The position numbers and the translations under genes are program-made. Below are positions 42,964 through 54,421 of a stretch of 64,000 nt of DNA, piece by piece. Location: positions 1-64,000 of the forward strand of contig NZ_RJVB01000008.1 of assembly GCF_003751505.1 (NCBI RefSeq), given 5' to 3'. Under the pieces are notes generated by a model. That model saw only the letters and a list, made by a program, of their open reading frames with translations. It did no database searches and had not been told where the DNA came from. This DNA comes from Erwinia sp. JUb26 (GTDB lineage Bacteria > Pseudomonadota > Gammaproteobacteria > Enterobacterales > Enterobacteriaceae). Positions within the stretch are counted from its first letter, which is position 1. Each line of letters begins with the position of its first letter.

Positions 42964-43458
42964 ATGGAAATGTCGCAACTTACCGCACGTCGCCCTTATC
43001 TGTTGCGCGCTTTCTATGAGTGGTTGCTTGAGAACCAGCTCACCCCGCACCTTGTGGTCGACATTAATTTGCCGGGAGTGATGGTTCCTCTGGAATATGC
43101 GCGTGATGGCCAGATTGTGCTGAATATCGCGCCGCGCGCCGTAGGGAACCTGGAACTGGGTAACGATGAAGTGAGTTTTAACGCTCGCTTTGGTGGCGTA
43201 CCGCGGCAGGTCAATGTGCCGCTGGCAGCGGTACTGGCGATCTATGCCCGTGAGAATGGGGCCGGAACGATGTTCGAACCGGAACCTGCCTACGAAGGTG
43301 CCGGGGAATTTGATGCTTCCGCTGGACAGGATGAAGCGCCGGAAACCCTGATGTCGGTGATCGATGGCGATCGTCCTGATGACGAGAGCGACGATCATAC
43401 GCCTGATGACGAACCGCCTCCGCGCGGTGGCCGTCCGGCGCTACGCGTCGTGAAGTAA
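42964..43458 (+). CDS. sspB: ClpXP adaptor SspB
   Basis: SspB delivers ssrA-tagged proteins and some other substrates to the ClpXP protease. The 164-residue protein has a conserved tag-binding domain (residues 1-112), an acidic variable linker (about 113-150) and the ClpX-binding tail GGRPALRVVK. It lies five bases after sspA. Confidence 0.98.
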   Translation: MEMSQLTARRPYLLRAFYEWLLENQLTPHLVVDINLPGVMVPLEYARDGQIVLNIAPRAVGNLELGNDEVSFNARFGGVPRQVNVPLAAVLAIYARENGAGTMFEPEPAYEGAGEFDASAGQDEAPETLMSVIDGDRPDDESDDHTPDDEPPPRGGRPALRVVK

Positions 43459-43554: not shown

Positions 43555-45312
43555 TTAATACACGTCGCGCAGGTAACGCTTCTCTTTCTTCAGCTGATCG
43601 ATGTAGTCAGCCGCGCGCTCGGCAGACATACCGCCAAACTGAGCAACGATTTCATACAGCGCTTTATCAACGTCTTTCGCCATGCGTGATGCATCGCCGC
43701 ACACGTAGAAGTAAGCCCCTTCCTGCAGCCACGCAAACAGTTCAGCGCCCTGTTCCAGCATCCTGCTCTGCACGTAAATCTTTTTCGACTGATCGCGTGA
43801 GAAGGCCAGATCCAGACGCGTCAACAGACCGCTTTCCTGCCAGCCATTCAGCTCATCCTGATAGATGTAGTCGTGCTCCTGATGCTGATCGCCGAAGAAC
43901 AGCCAGTTTTTACCGCTGGCGCCGGTTGCCTGGCGTTCCTGCAGGAAGGCGCGGAATGGCGCAATACCGGTACCCGGGCCGATCATGATCAGCGGCGCGT
44001 TGCCGTTTGACGGTACGCGGAAGGCTTTGTTGGGCGAAATAAAGATCGCCGGCTTGCCGCCGCGGCCAACGCGCTCTGCCAGATAGGTTGAGCACACGCC
44101 GTTACGCGCACGTCCCGCGCTGTGATAGCGCACGGAAGCGATGGTCAGGTGTACCTGATTAGGGTGCGCCTTCGAGCTGGACGAAATTGAGTAGGCGCGG
44201 TGCTGAAGCGGGCGCAGCAGCGTGACAAACTCAGCGGTCGTCAGCGTGCGGGTCAGATCCAGCTGCAGCAGATCCAGGGTATCTTTACCCCAGAGCCATA
44301 CGCCCAACGCATCTTTATCATCGTGCTGCAGAACGTGGCGCAGCTCCTGATTCGTGGTGTTCTGGCCAACCCATTCGATCAGCTTGCGCGAAGGCTCGGA
44401 GATTTCGAACTGATAGGTCAGCAGGTCGCCCAGGCTGCGGTCAAAGCCAGGAACCGGGCTCTGATAATCGGACTTGAGCTGCGTCAGCAGCAGATCGACC
44501 AGTACCGGATCGTTGACCGGGATCACCCCGAGCGCATCACCGGCTTCATACTTCAGGCCGCTGTCGGTCAGATCGAATTCAAAGTGGCGAATGTCTTTAC
44601 CGGACGCCTCGCCGGACAGGCGCTTATTGGTGACCAGGGCGGCGGCATACGGGTTGTTTTTGTTGCTGCCCGGGATCACCGGTGCTTCCGGCAGGTTCTC
44701 CAGCGCTGCGCCGGTGCTGCCTGCACTGGCGGCGAACTGCGGCATGGAGTTAGCGATCCACTCACCGGCGGGATCTTCGTAGTCGATATCGCAGTCGATG
44801 CGATCGAATACGCGCTTCGCGCCCAGCTGTTCAAGACGCATATCGAAGAATTTGCCGGCCTGGCAGAAACCGTCATAGCCGGTATCGCCGATGGCCAGAA
44901 TAGCAAAGTGCATCTGTTCCATACGCGGTGCGGTGCTGGCAGAAAGCGCCTGCCAGAACAGTTCGGCGTTATCCGGCATCTCACCTTCACCGTAGGTGGA
45001 GGTAATAATCAGTACGTGACGCATGGTGGCGAAAACGTCGATATCGACTTCACCCAGACCCTGAACCACCGGCACCAGACCTTTGGCACGTGCGGCTTTC
45101 GCGGCGCTCTGCGCTAACGCTTCAGCGTTACCGGTCTGCGAACCGAACAGGATATGCAGCTGGGTTGTGGTTGCCGCGCCTGCGCTTGCTCCCGCCTGCG
45201 GTTTGTCTTCCAGCACCAGCAGACGTGAATGTAACCCGGCGAGGAAGCCTGCCAGCCAGAATTTCTGTTCACCATTAAATGGTGCATCTTCAGGAATATA
45301 AGGAATTTTCAT
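43555..45312 (-). CDS. CysJ-like NADPH diflavin reductase, likely electron donor to the adjacent glutamate synthase
   Basis: The 585-residue protein has the domain order of sulfite reductase flavoprotein CysJ. A flavodoxin-type FMN domain comes first: FGSQTGNAE (56-64), STYGEGEMPDN (105-115), IGDTGYDGFC (141-150). A connecting/FAD domain has RAYSIS (372-377) and GVCSTY (405-410). An NADPH domain has GPGTGIAPFRAF (445-456), SRDQ...KIYVQ (505-515, 2'-phosphate side), YVCGD and the terminal RDVY. It should pass electrons NADPH to FAD to FMN. It is not in a cys operon: no cysI or cysH is near. It lies 106 bases after a glutamate-synthase-type gene, in the place where gltD would be. A role as reductase of that enzyme is inference. 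It has no Fe-S cysteine motifs like those of GltD. Confidence 0.85.
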   Translation of the reverse strand: MKIPYIPEDAPFNGEQKFWLAGFLAGLHSRLLVLEDKPQAGASAGAATTTQLHILFGSQTGNAEALAQSAAKAARAKGLVPVVQGLGEVDIDVFATMRHVLIITSTYGEGEMPDNAELFWQALSASTAPRMEQMHFAILAIGDTGYDGFCQAGKFFDMRLEQLGAKRVFDRIDCDIDYEDPAGEWIANSMPQFAASAGSTGAALENLPEAPVIPGSNKNNPYAAALVTNKRLSGEASGKDIRHFEFDLTDSGLKYEAGDALGVIPVNDPVLVDLLLTQLKSDYQSPVPGFDRSLGDLLTYQFEISEPSRKLIEWVGQNTTNQELRHVLQHDDKDALGVWLWGKDTLDLLQLDLTRTLTTAEFVTLLRPLQHRAYSISSSSKAHPNQVHLTIASVRYHSAGRARNGVCSTYLAERVGRGGKPAIFISPNKAFRVPSNGNAPLIMIGPGTGIAPFRAFLQERQATGASGKNWLFFGDQHQEHDYIYQDELNGWQESGLLTRLDLAFSRDQSKKIYVQSRMLEQGAELFAWLQEGAYFYVCGDASRMAKDVDKALYEIVAQFGGMSAERAADYIDQLKKEKRYLRDVY

Positions 45313-45350
45313 GGGTTATTTATACTCAATCCCGTTTCGTCATGTTCAGT

Positions 45351-45404
45351 AACCCGCATTCTGGCGCTGCACCCCGCAGGATACAGCGCCAGTTCACGCG
45401 GGTT
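45351..45404 (-). other. large two-part hairpin between the glutamate synthase and diflavin reductase genes
   Basis: A nine-base-pair inner stem (CTGGCGCTG / CAGCGCCAG, loop of 14) is enclosed by a second seven-base-pair stem (AACCCGC / GCGGGTT), with small internal bulges. No T run follows. In a shared mRNA it could protect the upstream message or lower expression of the downstream gene. Confidence 0.7.
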
Positions 45405-45418
45405 GATTCAGGCTGTTA

Positions 45419-48400
45419 TCAGGCCAGTTTGCCTACCGCAGCGGCTAACTCCGGCAGCGCGGCGCGTGCAAACAGTTCCTCAAAGTCAGGCAATCCACCC
45501 AGCACCTGACGGTTGCTGGCATCCTGGTAGATGATCCAGCCGTAGGTCGCCAGACTATCCATTGAGCGGATGTTACGCTGAGTCAGCGCCGCCTTATAGT
45601 CTGCCATACGTTTGGCAGCAATCAGGCAGGACAGCTCTTCGTCGTTATAATTCTCAATCGCTGCGCGAGCGTGACGCTGCAGCTTAGAGATCAGGGCAAA
45701 GTCTTCCGTCATCAGCAGGTTACGTACCGCTTTTTCAACGGCGGCATCATCCACCGCGGTGCCTTTCGGCAGGCGGGAAAGGGCCAGCTGCTGAGCGGAG
45801 CTGAGCACGGTGTAGTTATTTAACAGCACCAGCATTTCTGGCGTGTCGGTCGCACCGTAGGCCGGTACTGCGCCGTTAGCGATCGGCTTGCCTTCACGCC
45901 AGGCGGCCTTGAATTTCGCTACCTGATGGCCGGCCAGAGCGGTAGACAGCTCCTCCAGCAGATCCTTGCGGCTCTTCGCCTTGAGGATCTCTGCGCTATC
46001 CTGATACAGCAGCAGGGAGCGCGGCATGACGTAGACAAAGTTCTGGCACTCGGTTTCCCAGTGATCCAGCAGCCAGGCGGCGCGAGGTGATTTCGTCGCC
46101 TCCAGATGCCAGGTCAGCATGGTGAACACCGCCTGTTTGTGCACGCGGGCCATTTCATTGTCTTCGGCGATGGAGCCGAACAGCACGGAATCACCGGCTG
46201 CATGGCTGGCCAGCGATCCGTACGGGTCGTACTGGTAGGCGAAGCCGCCGCTCATGCCGTTACCGAAGCCTTTACCAAACGTACCGAGGTTCAGAACGGC
46301 GCCGTTGGTCATATATTCGCAGCAGAAATCGCCGACGCCTTCCACCACAGCGGTAGCACCGGAGTTACGCACCGCGAAGCGGTCACCGGCCTGGCCCTGT
46401 ACGAACAGACGTCCACCGGTAGCACCGAACAGCGCGAAGTTACCGATCAGCACGTTGCCTTCAGCATCTTCAGAGCCGCCGCCAGGTGAAACAACGATCA
46501 GCTCGCCGCCACACTGGCCTTTACCGACGCCGTCGTTACAGGTACCGGAATGCGTCATCTGCATCCCGTCGTTACAGAACACGCCATAAGACTGACCGGC
46601 AGAACCGGAGGTGAAGATGTTCACCGTGCCCGGCGCCAGGTAGCGGCGGCCGCGATCGTCGAGCAGCGCGGCAGGAATATTTGCCAGCTGTTCCGCGTTC
46701 AGCGTGTGGTTCAGCATACGCTCGATATCAATAGCCAGCTGGCCACCGACGCTCTTGTTACGGTTGTTCAGCGTAATGCCATTGCCCAGACGGATATCGG
46801 TGCTTCCCTGAACAACCAGCGAGTCGTTCAGCAGCTCCACCCAGTCGTTATCAAGGGCGAAATCTTTTTCCAGATAGACCGGTTTGGCGATCTTCACTTC
46901 CGGTACCACGGTCAGCATGGCACGCAGATCGAGTTTGCCGACTTCCAGCGGGTGATCCATCAGGTGCAGCAGGTCAGAACGCCCGCGCGCTTCACGCAGG
47001 GAGCGTAATCCCAGGCGCGACAGCATCTCACGCACTTCATGCGCAACGTTGATGAAATATTGTGCCAGCTGGCGAGGATCGCCATCAAAGGCTTCGGCAT
47101 TGGTGGTCAGACCGGCCGGGCATTTCACGTTACAGTTTTTCGCCATTACGCATTTCAGCATCATCAGCGCGGTCGTACCGAACTCGAAGCTGTCGCCGCC
47201 AAGCAGGGCAGATTTCACCACGTCGCTACCGGTCTGCTGGGCGCCGGAGCAGCGCAGCAGCACTTTTTCGCGCAGGCCGTTGGCGCAGAGCGCCTGATGC
47301 ACTTCAGCAATGCCGATTTCGGCAACGCGACCGGTGTATTTCAGACTGGTCACCGATGCTGCACCGGTACCGCCGGTGTTACCCGCCACGTTGATCACAT
47401 CGGCACCGGCTTTCGCCACGCCGACCGCGATTGTGCCGATCCCTTCAGAAGACACCAGCTTAACGATGACGCGAACGCGCGCCGCCTTACAGTCGTGGAT
47501 CAGCTGTGCCAGATCCTCGATGGAGTAGGTATCGTGGTGCGGAGGAGGGGATACCAGCTCCACGCCCGGCGTACCGCCACGGGCAGCGGCGATCTCAACC
47601 GTCACTTTCGGCGCAGGCAGCTGACCGCCTTCACCCGGTTTTGCACCCTGACCGATTTTGATTTCCAGCTCGGATAGCATCGGATCGGCCAGATAGGCCG
47701 CCCAGACGCCAAAACGACCGGATGCCAGCTGTTTGATTCGTGATGCGCGGATGGTGCCGTGGCGAGAATAGTGCTCGCCGCCTTCACCGCAGTTGCTCAT
47801 GCCGCCAACCATGTTGGTACCGTGGGCAACCGCTTCGTGAGCCGGAGCAACCAGCGCACCGTGGCTCATCGCGCCGGAAGCGAACGTGCGGGTGATCTCG
47901 CAGGCCGGCTGGACTTCGCTCAGCGGCAGGGAAGGCTGAGTAGCGAAGATGCGTGACAAATAGTCAGCCGCTTTGCCCTGTGCCGTGATCTGCAGACCGT
48001 CAGCGGTGATTTCACTGTGCTCAATTTCATCCTGGAAGCGGTTTTTCAGCGCGGTAGCCAGCACCAGCAGACGTTCGTGCTCCGGCTTCAGGCCTTCAAT
48101 CGCATCGGTCAGACGCAGGGTGAACTGGCCAGCGCTTCCGGCTTCACAGGTCAGCCCGCGTACGGCGAAGCTGTTGTTCACCAGCGAGTAGCGGCCCAGC
48201 TTGCGGCTGAATTCAGCCAGGCTGTCAACGTGGGTCAGATCGCACGGGAAGGCCAGGATATCGCGCAGCGCGGCCGGACGGCGTTTACGTTCTTCGTGCA
48301 TCAGGCTGGAGAACTGACGGTAATCCGGCGTAATGGTAAAGGCGTTAATCACCTCATCAGGGATACGCTCAAAGCTGCTGTCAGCAAAGGACTTCGCTTT

Positions 48401-50944
48401 GATATTGAAGGCATTATCCAGCTTGGCCAGCGTCAGCAGGCGGATAAACTGATCTTCGTCATGCTGCTTGTCCGAGAAGCGGATAGGCTGCTCGGTCATG
48501 TCGATAAAGGTACGTACGGCAATAGTACCGTAAGAGTGACCGGCACCTTCTGCACGTTCTTTAAACAGGCCCAGCAGCGGAACTTCCGCTTCGCCCTGAA
48601 TTTTCAGGGCGCTCTGGTGCCAGTCCACGGCCATCTGCGCGATAGACGCAAAGCCCGCACCGCCCACCGGCGTTTTAATGTTCGGGAAGTATTTCTTCAG
48701 CACGCGATCTTCGGTATCCAGGAAGTTTGGCTCGAAGAATTCACCGCAGCTGTAGCTTTCAACCGTACACAGGCCCACTTTACCCATGGTTTTCATCAAG
48801 GCTTTTTCTGCAGCCTTGGCATAGCGTTTGAAGGCTTTATTACCTTCTTCGCCTTCGCCATATTTCTCTTCGGCACGCATCTGCACGCCGAGCGGATAGA
48901 TGGCTGAAGCACCAAAGCCCAGCGCAGCGGCAATGTGGTGCGAAGAAATACTCTGGCCGCTTTCAACCACCAAAGAAACGTCAAGACGCAGACCTTCCTG
49001 CACCAGACGCTGGTTGATGGCGGACACCACCAACAGCATCGGCATCGCCGCCTGCGTTGAGGAAATGTGGCGGTCGGTCAGTACCGCGATGCCACCCTGT
49101 TCACGGGCAAAATCAACCACCTGCTGAGCAAGGTCGTCAATCGCCTGTTCCAGCGCATCGGCATTCTTTTGGCGGCTCGCTACATCGCTGCCGAGCACCG
49201 GCGCGTAGAGCATTTCAAAACGGGCGTACGGTGCCACATCCTGCTCGCGCAGCTGCAGCATATCCAGATGCGTCAGGATCGGTGTCGGCACGATGATCTG
49301 GCGGCCTTTACTGCGGCCCAGATGCGGCTTGGCACCCAGCGCCACGCGCAGCGTCATACCGTCAACTTCACGAATGGAGTCTAACGGTGGGTTCGTCACC
49401 TGCGCAAAGCGCTGGGAGAAGTAGTGCGCCATGCCGCCTTCATGATCGGATAAGGCGTTGATCGCGTTGCCGTAACCCATGGCTGAAATTTTTTCAGCGC
49501 CGGTGTTCAGCATCGGATCCATCATGAATTTGAAGCTTTCCTGGTTATAATAGTAAGCCACAAAGCGCTGATAGGTTTTCAGATCGCCGCTATAGCGCAG
49601 CGGTGAGCCCTGTTTTTCCGCCGGGATCACCGGCAGCTCTTGCAGCGTGATACGTGCCTCAGCAACCAGCGCCGGGTAGTCTTTCTCCGCAGCCAGCTTT
49701 TCCAGCGCTTCTACGGTGGTGTAGCTGCGTTTTTCGCTGTGATCGTAGTACAGCATCCCGCCCGCTTCGATACGGCCGCGGCGCAGCACGCTTTCCGGTG
49801 GGAAGGCGATCTGGCCGGCTTCGGACATGGCGCCGATGTATTCGGCAGTTTCCACCGAACGCAGCGGACGCAGGCCCAGGCGGTCAAGGCGGGCACCGAT
49901 GATTTCACCGTTACCAAAGATCAGCGCTGCCGGGCCGTCGTTCTTCTCTTCATAAAGAGAGAAGTATTCGAGCATGGCGCGAACGTTCTCGGAAAGAGAG
50001 TCATCGTTTTCCCAGGCCGGTGGCATCATGGAAACTACGGCGTTAATCAGGTCGAGATTATCTTCCATCAGGCGGCTGTGGATGCTCTGGTCCAGACGCG
50101 AACTGTCAGACTGACCTTTTGGACGAACGATTTTCTTGCCGCGAGCCGAAGCAAGCGCGGATTCCGCGATGCGGTTTTTACGGTCGGTATTCAGCTCACC
50201 GTTGTGCGCCATCAGACGGAACGGCTGTGCCATCGTGGTGTGCGGATCGGTGTTGGTTGAAAAACGGGTATGGAAGAACAGACCGCGAACGCGATGATCG
50301 GGATCGGTCAGATCTTTGAAGTAAGGGATCACTTCATTGGAGTTCAGGCGTGCCTTAAACACCTGGGTGCGCGAGGAGAGCGACAGCGGGTAGAGGCCGC
50401 CAAATTCACTTTCGGTAAAGGCACGGGCTTCGATATCCAGCAGGGCACGATAGATGCGTTTTTCGAAATCGTTTTGATTATCAATGTCCTGGGGAACTGC
50501 GAAGATCCACTGTGCGATAGGCAGCTGCGACACAATGGCAGCCGGGCGCAGTACGTCGGTGTCCAGCGGCATATCGCGTTTTAAAATCACCGACAGGCCG
50601 TAGGCCGCGAGGGTTTCTTCTACCAGCCGCTCGGCATTGGCACGCAGCGCGCTGTCCTTCGGCACAAAGAAATTGCCTACGCCAAAACGGCCCGGCTCAA
50701 GCTGCTGGCCGGTAATTTTGCGGAAAAAATGCAGTGAGATATCCACGTTGACGCCCGCGCCATCGCCCACGCCTTCAGCAGACATGCCGCCGCGATGAGG
50801 AACGGTACACAGGGCACTGTGTGCCATCTGGAGGACCTCATGAGTTTGCTCGCCGTCCTTACGTGTAATGAAACCCACGCCACAGCTATCACTCTCTTTT
50901 GTTGGATCATACAAGCCATAGGGATACGGTTTTGAGTCAGACAT
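45419..50944 (-). CDS. non-canonical glutamate synthase large subunit (GltB family, 1841 residues)
   Basis: This protein belongs to the glutamate synthase alpha family, which makes glutamate from glutamine and 2-oxoglutarate. Cys21 in DSCGVGF would be the N-terminal nucleophile after removal of 20 residues. The amidotransferase domain (21-430) has VPHRGG, HTRFSTNT (225-232) and AHNGELN (246-252). The FMN domain (about 1020-1310) has GEGGEHYSRHG, GQGAKPGEGGQLP and SPPPHHDTYSIEDL. Cys1265, 1271 and 1275 form CX5CX3C, against CX5CX4C in classical enzymes. The GXGXG domain is about 1440-1570. Classical subunits have about 1480 residues; here extra sequence lies before the FMN domain and as a tail (about 1667-1841) I do not recognise. 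An AAGGAGG site six bases before ATG supports the start. No gltD follows; a diflavin reductase does. Confidence 0.85.
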   Translation of the reverse strand: MSDSKPYPYGLYDPTKESDSCGVGFITRKDGEQTHEVLQMAHSALCTVPHRGGMSAEGVGDGAGVNVDISLHFFRKITGQQLEPGRFGVGNFFVPKDSALRANAERLVEETLAAYGLSVILKRDMPLDTDVLRPAAIVSQLPIAQWIFAVPQDIDNQNDFEKRIYRALLDIEARAFTESEFGGLYPLSLSSRTQVFKARLNSNEVIPYFKDLTDPDHRVRGLFFHTRFSTNTDPHTTMAQPFRLMAHNGELNTDRKNRIAESALASARGKKIVRPKGQSDSSRLDQSIHSRLMEDNLDLINAVVSMMPPAWENDDSLSENVRAMLEYFSLYEEKNDGPAALIFGNGEIIGARLDRLGLRPLRSVETAEYIGAMSEAGQIAFPPESVLRRGRIEAGGMLYYDHSEKRSYTTVEALEKLAAEKDYPALVAEARITLQELPVIPAEKQGSPLRYSGDLKTYQRFVAYYYNQESFKFMMDPMLNTGAEKISAMGYGNAINALSDHEGGMAHYFSQRFAQVTNPPLDSIREVDGMTLRVALGAKPHLGRSKGRQIIVPTPILTHLDMLQLREQDVAPYARFEMLYAPVLGSDVASRQKNADALEQAIDDLAQQVVDFAREQGGIAVLTDRHISSTQAAMPMLLVVSAINQRLVQEGLRLDVSLVVESGQSISSHHIAAALGFGASAIYPLGVQMRAEEKYGEGEEGNKAFKRYAKAAEKALMKTMGKVGLCTVESYSCGEFFEPNFLDTEDRVLKKYFPNIKTPVGGAGFASIAQMAVDWHQSALKIQGEAEVPLLGLFKERAEGAGHSYGTIAVRTFIDMTEQPIRFSDKQHDEDQFIRLLTLAKLDNAFNIKAKSFADSSFERIPDEVINAFTITPDYRQFSSLMHEERKRRPAALRDILAFPCDLTHVDSLAEFSRKLGRYSLVNNSFAVRGLTCEAGSAGQFTLRLTDAIEGLKPEHERLLVLATALKNRFQDEIEHSEITADGLQITAQGKAADYLSRIFATQPSLPLSEVQPACEITRTFASGAMSHGALVAPAHEAVAHGTNMVGGMSNCGEGGEHYSRHGTIRASRIKQLASGRFGVWAAYLADPMLSELEIKIGQGAKPGEGGQLPAPKVTVEIAAARGGTPGVELVSPPPHHDTYSIEDLAQLIHDCKAARVRVIVKLVSSEGIGTIAVGVAKAGADVINVAGNTGGTGAASVTSLKYTGRVAEIGIAEVHQALCANGLREKVLLRCSGAQQTGSDVVKSALLGGDSFEFGTTALMMLKCVMAKNCNVKCPAGLTTNAEAFDGDPRQLAQYFINVAHEVREMLSRLGLRSLREARGRSDLLHLMDHPLEVGKLDLRAMLTVVPEVKIAKPVYLEKDFALDNDWVELLNDSLVVQGSTDIRLGNGITLNNRNKSVGGQLAIDIERMLNHTLNAEQLANIPAALLDDRGRRYLAPGTVNIFTSGSAGQSYGVFCNDGMQMTHSGTCNDGVGKGQCGGELIVVSPGGGSEDAEGNVLIGNFALFGATGGRLFVQGQAGDRFAVRNSGATAVVEGVGDFCCEYMTNGAVLNLGTFGKGFGNGMSGGFAYQYDPYGSLASHAAGDSVLFGSIAEDNEMARVHKQAVFTMLTWHLEATKSPRAAWLLDHWETECQNFVYVMPRSLLLYQDSAEILKAKSRKDLLEELSTALAGHQVAKFKAAWREGKPIANGAVPAYGATDTPEMLVLLNNYTVLSSAQQLALSRLPKGTAVDDAAVEKAVRNLLMTEDFALISKLQRHARAAIENYNDEELSCLIAAKRMADYKAALTQRNIRSMDSLATYGWIIYQDASNRQVLGGLPDFEELFARAALPELAAAVGKLA

Positions 50945-51739
50945 CGAGGGCCTCCTTAACTTCTTTTGTACATTACCTATATTGTTCAGGCACAGAACGC
51001 AGCTGAGCGGTCACCTCAGGGTCTGTATCATTTTTCTTTGCCGCTAAAATGCGGACACCATGACTCCGAGCATTCCATCCTGAGACATAAGCACATCGTC
51101 CGTGAATGAAAAACTCTCTAGATTCCTGGTCTCATTAAATGGAGATATCCGGTATCACGAGGGAGTCGTCTAACTGCATATGTATGCCGAGACACTGGCC
51201 CGTAAGCAAAGCTTCCAGCGGATTCCCAACTTATCGGGAAAGCGTACAGAGGTCAAATACCGATCTTTCTTATGCCTTTTAATGAGTTTTGTTGTTTAAC
51301 TTCATGATAAATATGAAGATATAACCTGATTTCACCTCTGTTGGAGGTAAGGTGGCATGTAAAGAAGTGTGAGCTGTCTCACTATAGTGCAGCGAGCAAA
51401 TTGCTGCACCATGCTGGCATTGCGCCTCGTCGCAGCATAATGTGCTGATTGGAGGGTAATACCCACATCAACACACTGTTTTTAATCAGTGGGGATATTT
51501 GAATTAAACGGGGGGGGTTATTAGTAAAATTAATCACGTCAGGAGTGAGTAATTCTTCGTAATTTATGAATGATTATTCGTTTGGATGTAGCAAAGGAAA
51601 GGCGAGTGATCTGCATCATCGCTATGAAAAGTAATATTGAAGCTCTGCACACTGGGTTTTGAGCGGCTTTATAGATTATGCAGTTATAAAATTTAGTCAA
51701 TATATCTGGCAACAACTTTTTGCTCTGATGCCAAAATAA
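50945..51739 (-). promoter_or_regulatory. long upstream region of the glutamate synthase gene
   Basis: These 795 bases precede the gene and hold no supported coding frame. They include a 23-base inverted repeat GTGCAGC / GCTGCAC (51387-51409), a weak NtrC-like half-site TGCACC (51405-51410) and an eight-G run (51510-51517). If the sigma-54 candidate at 51751 is used, all of this is a leader. A nearer sigma-70 promoter is possible but I see no strong one. Confidence 0.4.
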
Positions 51740-51750
51740 TTGATAAATCA

Positions 51751-51766
51751 TGCAGGAGCCGCGCCA
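51751..51766 (-). promoter_or_regulatory. candidate sigma-54 promoter towards the glutamate synthase gene
   Basis: Reading leftwards, TGGCGCGGCTCCTGCA matches the consensus TGGCACG-N4-TTGCW at all but two positions and has GG and GC ten bases apart. The start would be near 51740. The nearest NtrC-type site is centred about 128 bases upstream, a normal distance for NtrC activation. The 800-base leader is the weak point. Confidence 0.4.
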
Positions 51767-51859
51767 GCACAGGCCGAAGAGGTAATTTCCGCGCAGGAAT
51801 ACCGCTGCTCTTCGGCGACGAAAATTCCGTGATAATAGCGATTAAGCTAGAGAGTGTTC

Positions 51860-51876
51860 TGCACCACTATTGTGCA
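51860..51876. promoter_or_regulatory. NtrC-type binding site 1
   Basis: TGCACCACTATTGTGCA has perfect TGCAC / GTGCA arms with the seven-base spacing of NtrC sites such as those at glnA. It lies between arcB and the glutamate synthase gene, upstream of the sigma-54 candidate. Confidence 0.6.
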
Positions 51877-51982
51877 GTGGATTTATTAAATCGAATTCAA
51901 TGTTCCATAACCGTGCAATGAATCGGTGAATAATATTTTCGTGAACTATAAGTGTGCATTTGATGAGTCAGGAAAGGTGCGC

Positions 51983-51999
51983 TGCACTTATTTTGTGCA
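51983..51999. promoter_or_regulatory. NtrC-type binding site 2
   Basis: TGCACTTATTTTGTGCA again has perfect arms and the same 17-base length. It is 123 bases from site 1 (centre to centre) and 80 bases upstream of arcB. The pair on this spacing is unlikely to be chance. Confidence 0.6.
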
Positions 52000-52078
52000 A
52001 AACTTTGCGCGCGTTAGCGTGTGGGACTTTGGTTCGATTCCGGTATGATTGAGGGATACAGACCGGAAGGGATCCTAA

Positions 52079-54421
52079 ATGAAACAAATTCGATTACTGG
52101 CGCAGTACTACGTTGATTTGATGGTCAAGCTGGGGCTGGTTCGCTTCTCTTTGCTGCTGGCTTCCGCCCTGGTGGTACTGGCAATGATTGTCCAGATGGC
52201 CGTGACCATGGTGCTTCGCGGGCATGTGGAAAGCATCGACGTGGTGCGATCGGTGTTTTTTGGCCTGCTGATTACGCCCTGGGCGGTATATTTCCTTTCG
52301 GTCGTTGTGGAGCAGCTGGAAGAGTCACGCCAGCGACTGGCGCGGCTGGTCGATAAGCTTGAGGAGATGCGCAACCGCGATCTCGAGCTGAATCAGCAAA
52401 TGAAGGAAAACATTACCCAGCTCAATCAGGAAATTGCCGATCGTATTAAGGCGGAAGAAGCGCGTCTGCAGGTAATGACCCGCCTGAAAGAGGAAATGGC
52501 ACGGCGTGAACAGGCGCAGATCGAACTGGAGCAGCAGTCAACCTTCCTGCGCTCGTTTCTGGACGCTTCGCCGGATCTGGTGTTCTACCGTAACGCCGAT
52601 CAGCAGTTTTCCGGCTGTAATCGGGCGATGGAACTGCTGACGGGGAAAAGTGAGAAGCAGCTCATTGGGTTAACCCCGAATGACGTCTACGACGACGATG
52701 CCGCGTTAAAAGTGTTGGAAACGGACGAAAAGGTTTTCCGCCACAACGTTTCTCTGACCTACGAGCAGTGGCTGCAGTATCCCGACGGCCGCAAAGCCTG
52801 CTTTGAGATCCGCAAAGTGCCTTATTACGACCGCGTGGGTAAACGCAGCGGTCTGATGGGCTTCGGACGCGATATAACGGAACGTAAGCGTTACCAGGAC
52901 GCGTTAGAGAATGCCAGCAGGGAGAAGACCACTTTTATCTCAACAATCAGCCACGAGCTTCGTACGCCGCTTAACGGCATTGTCGGGCTGAGCCGGATTC
53001 TGCTGGATACTCATTTAAACCCGGAACAGCTTAAGTATCTGAAAACCATTCACGTCTCTGCGATAACCCTTGGAAACATCTTCAACGATGTCATCGAGAT
53101 GGACAAAATCGAGCGTCGGAAGGTGCAGTTGGATAATCAGCCGCTTGATTTCACCGGCCTGCTGGCCGATCTGGAAAATCTCTCCGGCCTGCTGGCCGAG
53201 CCTAAGGGGCTGAAGTTTATCCTGCAGCCGGAACTTCCGCTGCCGCACAAAATTGTGGCGGACGGCACGCGCCTGCGGCAGATCCTGTGGAATCTGATCG
53301 GCAATGCGGTGAAGTTCACCCAGCGCGGCGAAATCGTCGTGCGGGTGGGCTATCGCGATGAAGACTGCCTGTGCTTTGAGGTGGAAGATTCCGGGATGGG
53401 TATTCCGCAGGATGAACAGGATAAGATCTTTGCCATGTACTATCAGGTGAAAGATCAGCGCGGCGGTAAACCGGCAACCGGCACCGGCATTGGCCTGGCG
53501 GTGTCCCGCCGTCTGGCGCAGGCCATGGGGGGTGATATCAGCGTTCGTAGCGCACAGGGGCAGGGTTCATGCTTTACGCTGACGCTGAATGCACCGCGGG
53601 TTGCGGAAGAGGTTGAGGACGAGCAGCCTGAAGACGATCTTCCATTGCCTGCGCTGCATGTGCTATTGGTGGAAGACATTGAGCTTAACGTGGTGGTGGC
53701 AAGATCGGTGCTGGAGAAACTCGGCAACAGCGTCGACGTGGCGATGACCGGGCAGGAAGCGCTGGATATGTTCGATCCGGATGAATTCGATCTGGTGCTG
53801 CTGGATATTCAGCTGCCGGATATGACCGGCCTGGATGTGGCGCGAGCTATTCATCAGCGTCATGCTGGTAAACAACTGCCGCCGCTGGTGGCGTTAACCG
53901 CCAACGTACTGAAGGACAAGCGGGAGTACCTGGATGCGGGCATGGACGATGTGCTGAGTAAACCTCTGGCGGTGCCTGCACTGACGGCGATGATTAAGAA
54001 ATACTGGGACTATCAAAGCGAGGAGCGGGTGATACCTGCGCAGGAGATCAATTTGGATGAGAAAAAACTGGCGCTGCTGGATGTCGTGATGCTGGAGCAG
54101 TACATCGAACTGGTTGGGCCGAAACTGATTCATCAGAGCCTGGAGATGTTTGAGAAAATGATGCCGGGTTACCTGGACGTATTGGATTCCAACATGATGG
54201 CCCGCGACCAGAAAGGCATTGCGGAAGAAGGACATAAGATCAAAGGTGCCGCGGGTTCCGTTGGGCTGGTGCATCTGCAGCAGATTGCCAAACAAATTCA
54301 AAGCCCTGAGCTACCTGCCTGGTGGGACAACGTTCAGGAGTGGATTGATGAGCTTAAACAGGAATGGCGCAATGACGTGAATGTTCTGCGTGAATGGGTT
54401 TTGGACGCTGAAAAAAAATGA
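52079..54421 (+). CDS. arcB: aerobic respiration hybrid sensor kinase ArcB
   Basis: ArcB senses the redox state of the quinone pool and phosphorylates ArcA when oxygen is low. The 780-residue protein has two membrane helices (about residues 22-47 and 58-77), a coiled-coil/PAS region with the redox cysteines Cys180 and Cys241, the kinase domain with His292 (ISHELRTPLNG), a receiver with Asp576 and an Hpt domain with His719. The first four positions equal those in E. coli; the Hpt His is two residues later. A possible -10 box TATGAT is at 52044-52049. The 3' end is overlapped by arcZ on the other strand. Confidence 0.98.
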   Translation: MKQIRLLAQYYVDLMVKLGLVRFSLLLASALVVLAMIVQMAVTMVLRGHVESIDVVRSVFFGLLITPWAVYFLSVVVEQLEESRQRLARLVDKLEEMRNRDLELNQQMKENITQLNQEIADRIKAEEARLQVMTRLKEEMARREQAQIELEQQSTFLRSFLDASPDLVFYRNADQQFSGCNRAMELLTGKSEKQLIGLTPNDVYDDDAALKVLETDEKVFRHNVSLTYEQWLQYPDGRKACFEIRKVPYYDRVGKRSGLMGFGRDITERKRYQDALENASREKTTFISTISHELRTPLNGIVGLSRILLDTHLNPEQLKYLKTIHVSAITLGNIFNDVIEMDKIERRKVQLDNQPLDFTGLLADLENLSGLLAEPKGLKFILQPELPLPHKIVADGTRLRQILWNLIGNAVKFTQRGEIVVRVGYRDEDCLCFEVEDSGMGIPQDEQDKIFAMYYQVKDQRGGKPATGTGIGLAVSRRLAQAMGGDISVRSAQGQGSCFTLTLNAPRVAEEVEDEQPEDDLPLPALHVLLVEDIELNVVVARSVLEKLGNSVDVAMTGQEALDMFDPDEFDLVLLDIQLPDMTGLDVARAIHQRHAGKQLPPLVALTANVLKDKREYLDAGMDDVLSKPLAVPALTAMIKKYWDYQSEERVIPAQEINLDEKKLALLDVVMLEQYIELVGPKLIHQSLEMFEKMMPGYLDVLDSNMMARDQKGIAEEGHKIKGAAGSVGLVHLQQIAKQIQSPELPAWWDNVQEWIDELKQEWRNDVNVLREWVLDAEKK

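Follow-up and report, generated by a model that had tools for sequence, protein, structure and literature searches.

A CysJ-like diflavin reductase as the probable electron donor of an extended glutamate synthase in Erwinia and other bacteria

When ammonia is scarce, glutamate synthase is a main route by which nitrogen enters metabolism. The known enzymes are classed by their electron donor, which is either NAD(P)H, by way of GltD, or ferredoxin. GltD is the small subunit of the bacterial NADPH-dependent enzyme and carries FAD and two 4Fe-4S clusters. In the ferredoxin-dependent enzymes of plants and cyanobacteria, a GltB-type large subunit works without GltD. Here we describe a pair of genes in a 64,000-nucleotide stretch of Erwinia sp. 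JUb26 (positions 1 to 64,000 of contig NZ_RJVB01000008.1; "the window"), in which a gene for an extended GltB-family protein (gltBx) is followed by a gene for a CysJ-like diflavin reductase (rdx). We propose that GltBx and Rdx form an NADPH-dependent glutamate synthase, with the diflavin reductase as the electron-input subunit in place of GltD, and we give this explanation as a whole a probability of about 0.84. We regard the pair as a variant form of the enzyme whose probable electron donor is of a new kind.

GltBx (1841 amino acids, from an ATG start) resembles GltB of the GltBD enzyme in having the same four Pfam domains in the same order, GATase_2, Glu_syn_central, Glu_synthase (residues 991-1313) and GXGXG, and in lying at the site where E. 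coli carries gltBD. It narrowly passes the cut-off of the NCBIfam model PRK11750 (1054.2 bits against 1047). The catalytic cysteine of the class II amidotransferase domain, which in E. coli lies in the motif NCGFGLI, aligns with Cys21 of GltBx and is present in 76 of 76 GltBx sequences. A preliminary description of the locus, which was made from the sequence alone, had stated that the catalytic motifs of the large subunit are present, and the domains and Cys21 bear this out. Because these domains are intact and the enzyme is known, we expect that glutamine would be bound at the N-terminal glutaminase domain, that ammonia would be passed to the synthase site, and that 2-iminoglutarate would be reduced at the FMN of GltBx. 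We consider it very probable that GltBx functions as a glutamate synthase.

The pairing of the two genes is evidence that Rdx works with GltBx. A scan of contigs for relatives found 172, and we kept the best 80 as loci. Rdx lies directly after GltBx in all 80 of them according to tblastn, as the preliminary description had suggested checking. (Lists of open reading frames alone missed Rdx in L099, L105, L113, L116, and L120, and tblastn recovered all of these; in L096 and L112, the match to Rdx is split in two pieces.) GltBx is a single long frame in 75 of the 80 loci. In the other five (L068, L090, L096, L101, and L112) it is broken, by either assembly error or decay, and these loci were excluded from the motif alignment, the distance correlation, and both trees. 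In a separate search of 295 genomes from the same order, seven had a full-length extended GltB, and all seven had Rdx directly downstream (six of these loci are beyond the host's, and two of them, G097 and G238, are also among the 80). Even in G508, whose GltBx is only 50% identical, Rdx still follows. Measured in 74 loci, the spacing between the genes runs from -4 bp up to 189 bp, with an overlap in 13, and in the window no terminator-like site on the minus strand is listed within the 106-bp gap.

The pair occurs in Alpha-, Beta- and Gammaproteobacteria. The best 80 loci come from Pantoea, Erwinia, Mixta, Winslowiella, Lampropedia, Comamonas, Methylobacillus, Rhizobium, Agrobacterium, Shinella, Azorhizobium, Ancylobacter, and others. 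By a mechanical count across 79 loci, the pair has 21 families of upstream neighbors and 25 families of downstream neighbors, and the pairing is therefore not just a matter of conserved gene order. Both genes are under purifying selection (dN/dS of about 0.02 to 0.15 in comparisons to five relatives). Given these low ratios and the recurrence of the pair in every locus, we reject the idea that these are chance open reading frames. The distances between GltBx proteins are also highly correlated with those between the corresponding Rdx proteins (r = 0.97 for 82 pairs, or 0.96 for a thinned set of 25).

The host has no other glutamate synthase that we could find. Its genome is 99.96% complete and contains a single GltB-type gene, also when Glu_syn_central is used to search. 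GltD was not found: the cut-off is 482.95 bits, and the best match in the host, which consists of fragments only, reaches 33.1. A second, functional gltBD elsewhere in the host, which the preliminary description had considered, is therefore rejected. The host does have two matches to the glutamate dehydrogenase (GDH) family.

We examined 31 genomes for both GltB and GltD and found two GltBs in 18 and GltBx alone in 13. In all 18 genomes with two GltBs, GltD is within 5 kb of the canonical GltB. GltBx is on another contig in 14 of these, about 30 kb away in G305, within 10 kb in G094, and adjoining in G021 and G178. In the latter two genomes GltD is less than 1 kb from GltBx, and each large subunit still has its own partner immediately behind it, GltD for GltB and Rdx for GltBx. 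Among the 13 genomes with GltBx alone, GltD-family matches stay at 34 bits or less in 12, and the other (G303) has a match in a 651-amino-acid frame; none has a GltD of GltD length. The preliminary description had suggested looking for loss of gltD alongside the pair, and this holds for only part of the range. It holds for the host, for 36 of the 40 Erwiniaceae-type genomes (counting the host), which have no full-length GltD-family match, for two of five Methylobacillus genomes, and for G508 (fragments only). It does not hold for the other GltBx genomes searched, including three Methylobacillus (G305, G691, and G692), which keep GltD beside a canonical GltB. In the remaining four Erwiniaceae-type genomes, the match is in a frame of 651 to 701 amino acids, which exceeds the length of stand-alone GltD; from their length, these are presumably AegA/YgfT-like proteins. 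(In these counts, G097 and G298 are taken as one, since they appear to be the same genome, G267 is possibly of a species that is counted elsewhere, and two Erwiniaceae-type records bear Enterobacter names. The genome of L069 is outside the GltD and GDH counts. The limits on E-values for GltD were 0.001 in one search and 1e-12 in the other.)

A few genomes appear to depend on the pair. GDH of the PF02812 kind had no match in six of 45 genomes checked; PF02812 can also match other dehydrogenases and would miss the large type of GDH. Four genomes, all from Pantoea, have neither a PF02812-type GDH nor a GltD-family protein: P. eucrina LMG 5346 and Russ, Pantoea sp. Mb-10, and Ca. Pantoea formicae (G299, G666, G672, and G684, with loci L057, L059, L067, and L081). 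Three of these assemblies are at contig level, and all four may be drafts. In these four, GltBx-Rdx is thus the evident route to glutamate, a large-type GDH and other ammonia-fixing enzymes or transaminases aside.

Rdx, which also begins with ATG, has the domain layout of CysJ (Flavodoxin_1, FAD_binding_1, and NAD_binding_1 in Pfam). The motifs G[ST]QTGN in the flavodoxin domain, RxYSISSS in the FAD domain, and SRD...K.YVQ in the NADPH domain and a C-terminal tyrosine are present in 82 of 82 Rdx sequences, GPGTGIAPFRAF in the NADPH domain is present in 80 of 82, and GxCST[YFW]L in the FAD domain is present in 74 of 82. We take these motifs to be marks of FMN, FAD, and NADPH binding. Rdx would take up hydride from NADPH on its FAD and would pass the electrons to the FMN of its flavodoxin domain, from which they would be delivered to the Fe-S cluster of GltBx and onward to the FMN of GltBx. 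We infer strongly that Rdx is probably the main electron donor of GltBx, with NADPH as the source. The preliminary description had proposed a diflavin partner for GltB, and this is supported as far as sequence can decide.

An alternative is that GltBx is a ferredoxin- or flavodoxin-dependent synthase in the style of plants and cyanobacteria, and that Rdx only keeps a small carrier reduced or is a replaceable helper. Ferredoxin-dependent enzymes of the GltB family do exist, and the structure of one (PDB 1llw), as well as others, matches GltBx. However, the ferredoxin enzyme is not the closest: the best match in PDB is the large chain of an NADPH-type enzyme (7mfm, 819.5 bits), while 1llw scores 725 bits. 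Also, Rdx has a flavodoxin domain of its own, and where the plant and cyanobacterial enzymes draw on free ferredoxin, GltBx has a linked, dedicated NADPH diflavin reductase; for a shared carrier to come with one at every one of 80 loci would be out of the ordinary. We consider this alternative to be improbable.

It is slightly less probable still that Rdx is the flavoprotein of sulfite reductase and travels with GltBx for historical reasons, with some other reductase feeding GltBx. Rdx resembles CysJ, the partner of CysI, in its FMN/FAD/NADPH layout and is 42% identical to the host's CysJ. NCBI names the homologues from Shinella and Tsukamurella "sulfite reductase subunit alpha" and the one from Ketogulonicigenium "sulfite reductase flavoprotein subunit alpha." The scores of Rdx against CysJ models are high but below the cut-off for each of the two equivalogs (612.7 against 668.15 for TIGR01931, and 521.3 against 838 for PRK10953), and the same is true of five of five other Rdx proteins. 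Rdx does pass the cut-off for PRK06214, which is named "sulfite reductase subunit alpha" (478.8 against 432), and so do four of the five relatives, but one of three molybdopterin-diflavin fusion proteins passes it too. In a phylogenetic tree, 25 Rdx proteins group together (support 95/92), apart from six CysJ proteins (100/99) and from the diflavin parts of four fusion proteins (100/99). Furthermore, the neighbor of Rdx is GltBx rather than CysI: searches with CysI and CysH from the host had no match in the window or in the 80 loci, each of which takes in as much as 10 kb past the match. This agrees with the preliminary description, which had seen no cysI or cysH nearby. The host has a separate cysJ-cysI-cysH locus on another contig, so we reject Rdx as the host's only CysJ. 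The preliminary description had named a reductase that serves sulfite reductase alone as a finding that would count against the pair; this did not turn up in the host, where sulfite reductase has a CysJ of its own. Among 16 genomes that we searched for a second CysJ-clade protein, six have one (four Erwiniaceae, including the host, as well as G021 and G094), and the ten others, where none was found, fit a role in sulfite reduction. The host encodes a third diflavin reductase as well (513 amino acids, L050 7685-9226; C3:557705-559150 in the host's own genome), which is 30-33% identical to Rdx, far from CysJ in the tree, and not near GltBx.

Finally, it is very improbable that GltBx-Rdx makes glutamate only secondarily and has another amide transfer or reduction as its main job: although GltBx branches deeply from canonical GltB, carries two additional segments, and is found together with gltBD in 18 of the 31 genomes, it is the sole GltB in 13 of them, its FMN domain is its best-conserved part, the four Pantoea genomes show neither a PF02812-type GDH nor a GltD-family protein, and a gltB knockout of P. 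ananatis is reported to be a glutamate auxotroph (PMC12364357).

That report is second-hand, after Hara et al. 2012. According to PMC12364357 (2025), nothing closely homologous to E. coli glutamate synthase (GOGAT) is present in P. ananatis AJ13355, whose putative gltB is 64% identical to the large subunit of GOGAT from Agrobacterium. We firmly infer that the gene that was knocked out is gltBx, because the type strain of P. ananatis (LMG 2665, or G097) has just one GltB, which is of the extended kind, and its GltBx is 68% identical in our alignment to GltBx from Agrobacterium, as compared to the reported 64%. The terms "gltD" and "flavoprotein" do not occur in the main text of PMC12364357, nor do "diflavin" and "CysJ" in the searched text of PMC8097209. 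A term search for "GOGAT" had no match in PMC9231021, and the relevant passages of PMC5561584 concern ordinary cysJI. In the open-licence literature in PubMed Central (PMC), we found no description of the GltBx-Rdx pair, in keeping with the preliminary description, which knew of no characterised enzyme of this form.

Several points weigh against our proposal. The reported auxotrophy concerns gltB and not rdx, in a strain, SC17(0), that is outside the genomes we searched, and in the open-licence PMC literature we found neither biochemical nor genetic work on Rdx. As we found no other CysJ-clade protein in 10 of the 16 genomes with Rdx, Rdx might also serve sulfite reductase there; in G311, G312, and G508, Rdx is the sole match at E 1e-20. 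In the 18 of 31 genomes that keep a canonical gltBD beside the pair, GltBx could serve some specialised purpose. Correlated distances would arise for any pair of genes that move as a unit, and we saw no protein in which GltBx and Rdx are fused.

GltBx also differs from canonical GltB in its sequence. The cysteines of the Fe-S motif are spaced C-x5-C-x3-C in 76 of 76 intact GltBx sequences in the alignment; in contrast, the spacing is C-x5-C-x4-C in E. coli GltB and in 23 GltB loci of the same order. (The canonical spacing was read from 23 of 26 loci, with L046-L048 left out.) We speculate that GltBx could have an altered type of cluster. Compared to E. coli GltB (1486 amino acids), GltBx has a longer linker, an insert of about 108 amino acids beside the FMN domain, and a C-terminal extension of about 196 amino acids. 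Nearly all of the insert (residues 897-1004) has no counterpart in E. coli GltB, and it had no Pfam match among five members scanned; in a structure model it is alpha/beta, with mean pLDDT over 10-residue stretches of 81-93 from residue 900 onward. For the extension, we found no convincing Pfam family in 20 members (the best E-value was 0.0028, to an unrelated family). It is modelled as all-helical, with a mean pLDDT of 82.7, and no clear known fold matched the model. Speculatively, Rdx might dock onto these two segments. When we divided GltBx into seven parts and compared 25 thinned sequences, conservation was highest for the FMN/Fe-S domain (0.92) and lowest for the insert (0.54), with the extension at 0.65. 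In a tree of 37 sequences, 25 GltBx and 12 canonical GltBs are split by a long branch with support of 100/100.

In Erwiniaceae, the pair appears to have replaced gltBD. The Erwiniaceae group with four Comamonadaceae (Lampropedia and Paracidovorax) at 100/100 in the trees of both GltBx and Rdx. In the Rdx tree, the Erwiniaceae are nested inside the betaproteobacterial group, and in the GltBx tree, the two are sisters; both trees were midpoint-rooted and come with long-branch warnings. The 16 other genomes of the same family with a match to GltB have the shorter kind only. The simplest reading of these sequence comparisons is that an ancestor of the Erwiniaceae acquired the pair horizontally and that it replaced gltBD at gltBD's own site. 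Judging from the trees and synteny, the donor was probably a betaproteobacterial lineage. Plasmids are a possible vehicle for the spread of the pair: nine plasmid records were listed at 59% identity or above, and the three that we opened all carry the pair, on large plasmids of Tsukamurella (an actinobacterium), Ketogulonicigenium (typed as conjugative), and Shinella (L133, L134, and L135). In a phylum-wide sample, the extension was found in six of 398 genomes and in five of 213 genera, so it is widespread but uncommon. A wider reading, in which the diflavin-linked enzyme has spread across phyla and has taken the place of GltBD in Erwiniaceae, among them a bacterium used for industrial glutamate production, is tentative, and taken in its entirety we rate it at somewhat less than even odds.

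If our proposal is correct, then the diflavin-linked form is a further class of glutamate synthase, with an input of electrons through flavins only, and it makes testable whether the low-potential Fe-S clusters of GltD are needed at all for glutamate synthesis. The four Pantoea genomes without PF02812-type GDH or GltD are natural test cases. It would correct the automatic label of "sulfite reductase subunit alpha" for a protein that is likely the partner of GltBx, and it bears on models of nitrogen and NADPH metabolism in Pantoea, Agrobacterium, and Methylobacillus. It would also explain why nothing close to E. coli GOGAT was found in P. ananatis, as PMC12364357 states.

A CysJ-like module is also joined to a large redox enzyme in another kind of protein. 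Three molybdopterin oxidoreductases of about 1400 amino acids, from Methylobacillus, an Agrobacterium sp., and Comamonas (L172, L173, and L174; all three that were tested), have an N-terminal part of the formate dehydrogenase/nitrate reductase type, with matches to these models that are all under the cut-off, followed by a CysJ-like diflavin module. A 1395-amino-acid frame in the genome of L175 is a candidate of the same kind. These fusions are a single chain, whereas GltBx and Rdx are separate proteins, and their diflavin parts form their own group in the tree. Fusions of this layout have been named assimilatory nitrate reductase. If these proteins are such enzymes, they would be a precedent for the recruitment of a CysJ-like module to nitrogen assimilation.

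The features of the locus are listed in Table 1.

Table 1. Positions of gltBx, rdx, their domains, and flanking genes in the 64,000-nucleotide window
Feature	Position	Strand	Basis
gltBx: extended glutamate synthase large subunit	45419..50944	-	ORF, Pfam, NCBIfam PRK11750; sole GltB found in genome
GATase_2 glutaminase domain, GltBx residues 21-423, Cys21 in SCGVGFI	49676..50884	-	Pfam
Glu_syn_central domain, GltBx residues 460-738	48731..49567	-	Pfam
Insert of ~108 aa, GltBx residues 897-1004, preceding FMN domain	47933..48256	-	Alignment to E. coli GltB
FMN / Fe-S synthase domain, GltBx residues 1005-1313	47006..47932	-	Pfam
Fe-S cluster motif CVMAKNCNVKC, GltBx residues 1265-1275, C-x5-C-x3-C	47120..47152	-	Alignment
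GXGXG domain, GltBx residues 1430-1596	46157..46657	-	Pfam
C-terminal extension of ~196 aa, GltBx residues 1646-1841	45422..46009	-	Alignment to E. coli GltB
Gap of 106 bp, gltBx to rdx	45313..45418	.	ORF coordinates
rdx: NADPH/FAD/FMN diflavin reductase, CysJ-like, 585 aa	43555..45312	-	ORF, Pfam, NCBIfam
Flavodoxin (FMN) domain, Rdx residues 54-177	44782..45153	-	Pfam
FAD domain, Rdx residues 217-410	44083..44664	-	Pfam
NADPH domain, Rdx residues 443-549	43666..43986	-	Pfam
sspB, flank marking E. coli gltBD site	42964..43458	+	tblastn, 79% to E. coli SspB
arcB, opposite flank	52079..54421	+	tblastn, 77% to E. coli ArcB

Both reading frames and the flanking genes sspB and arcB confirm the placement given in the preliminary description, with a GltB-family protein and then a CysJ-type reductase at the gltBD site of E. 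coli. The E. coli interval runs sspB-...-[gltD gltB](-)-yhcC-arcB, with a remnant of dcuC and an IS1 element between sspB and gltD in the strain that we compared, and the window has sspB-[rdx gltBx]-arcB in the same orientation. E. coli YhcC had no match in the window or among the 80 loci, although arcB is present in 41 of them. The place of yhcC in the window (50945-52078) is 1.1 kb with no open reading frame above 70 amino acids, and the replacement of gltBD may also have taken out yhcC. Over the C-terminus of GltBx, the closest named match among the best 80 of 172 relatives is from Pantoea coffeiphila (99%). The window is otherwise an ordinary stretch of enterobacterial chromosome: Pfam matches for nine open reading frames include dihydrouridine synthase, biotin carboxylase, arginine repressor, RapZ, and sigma-54.

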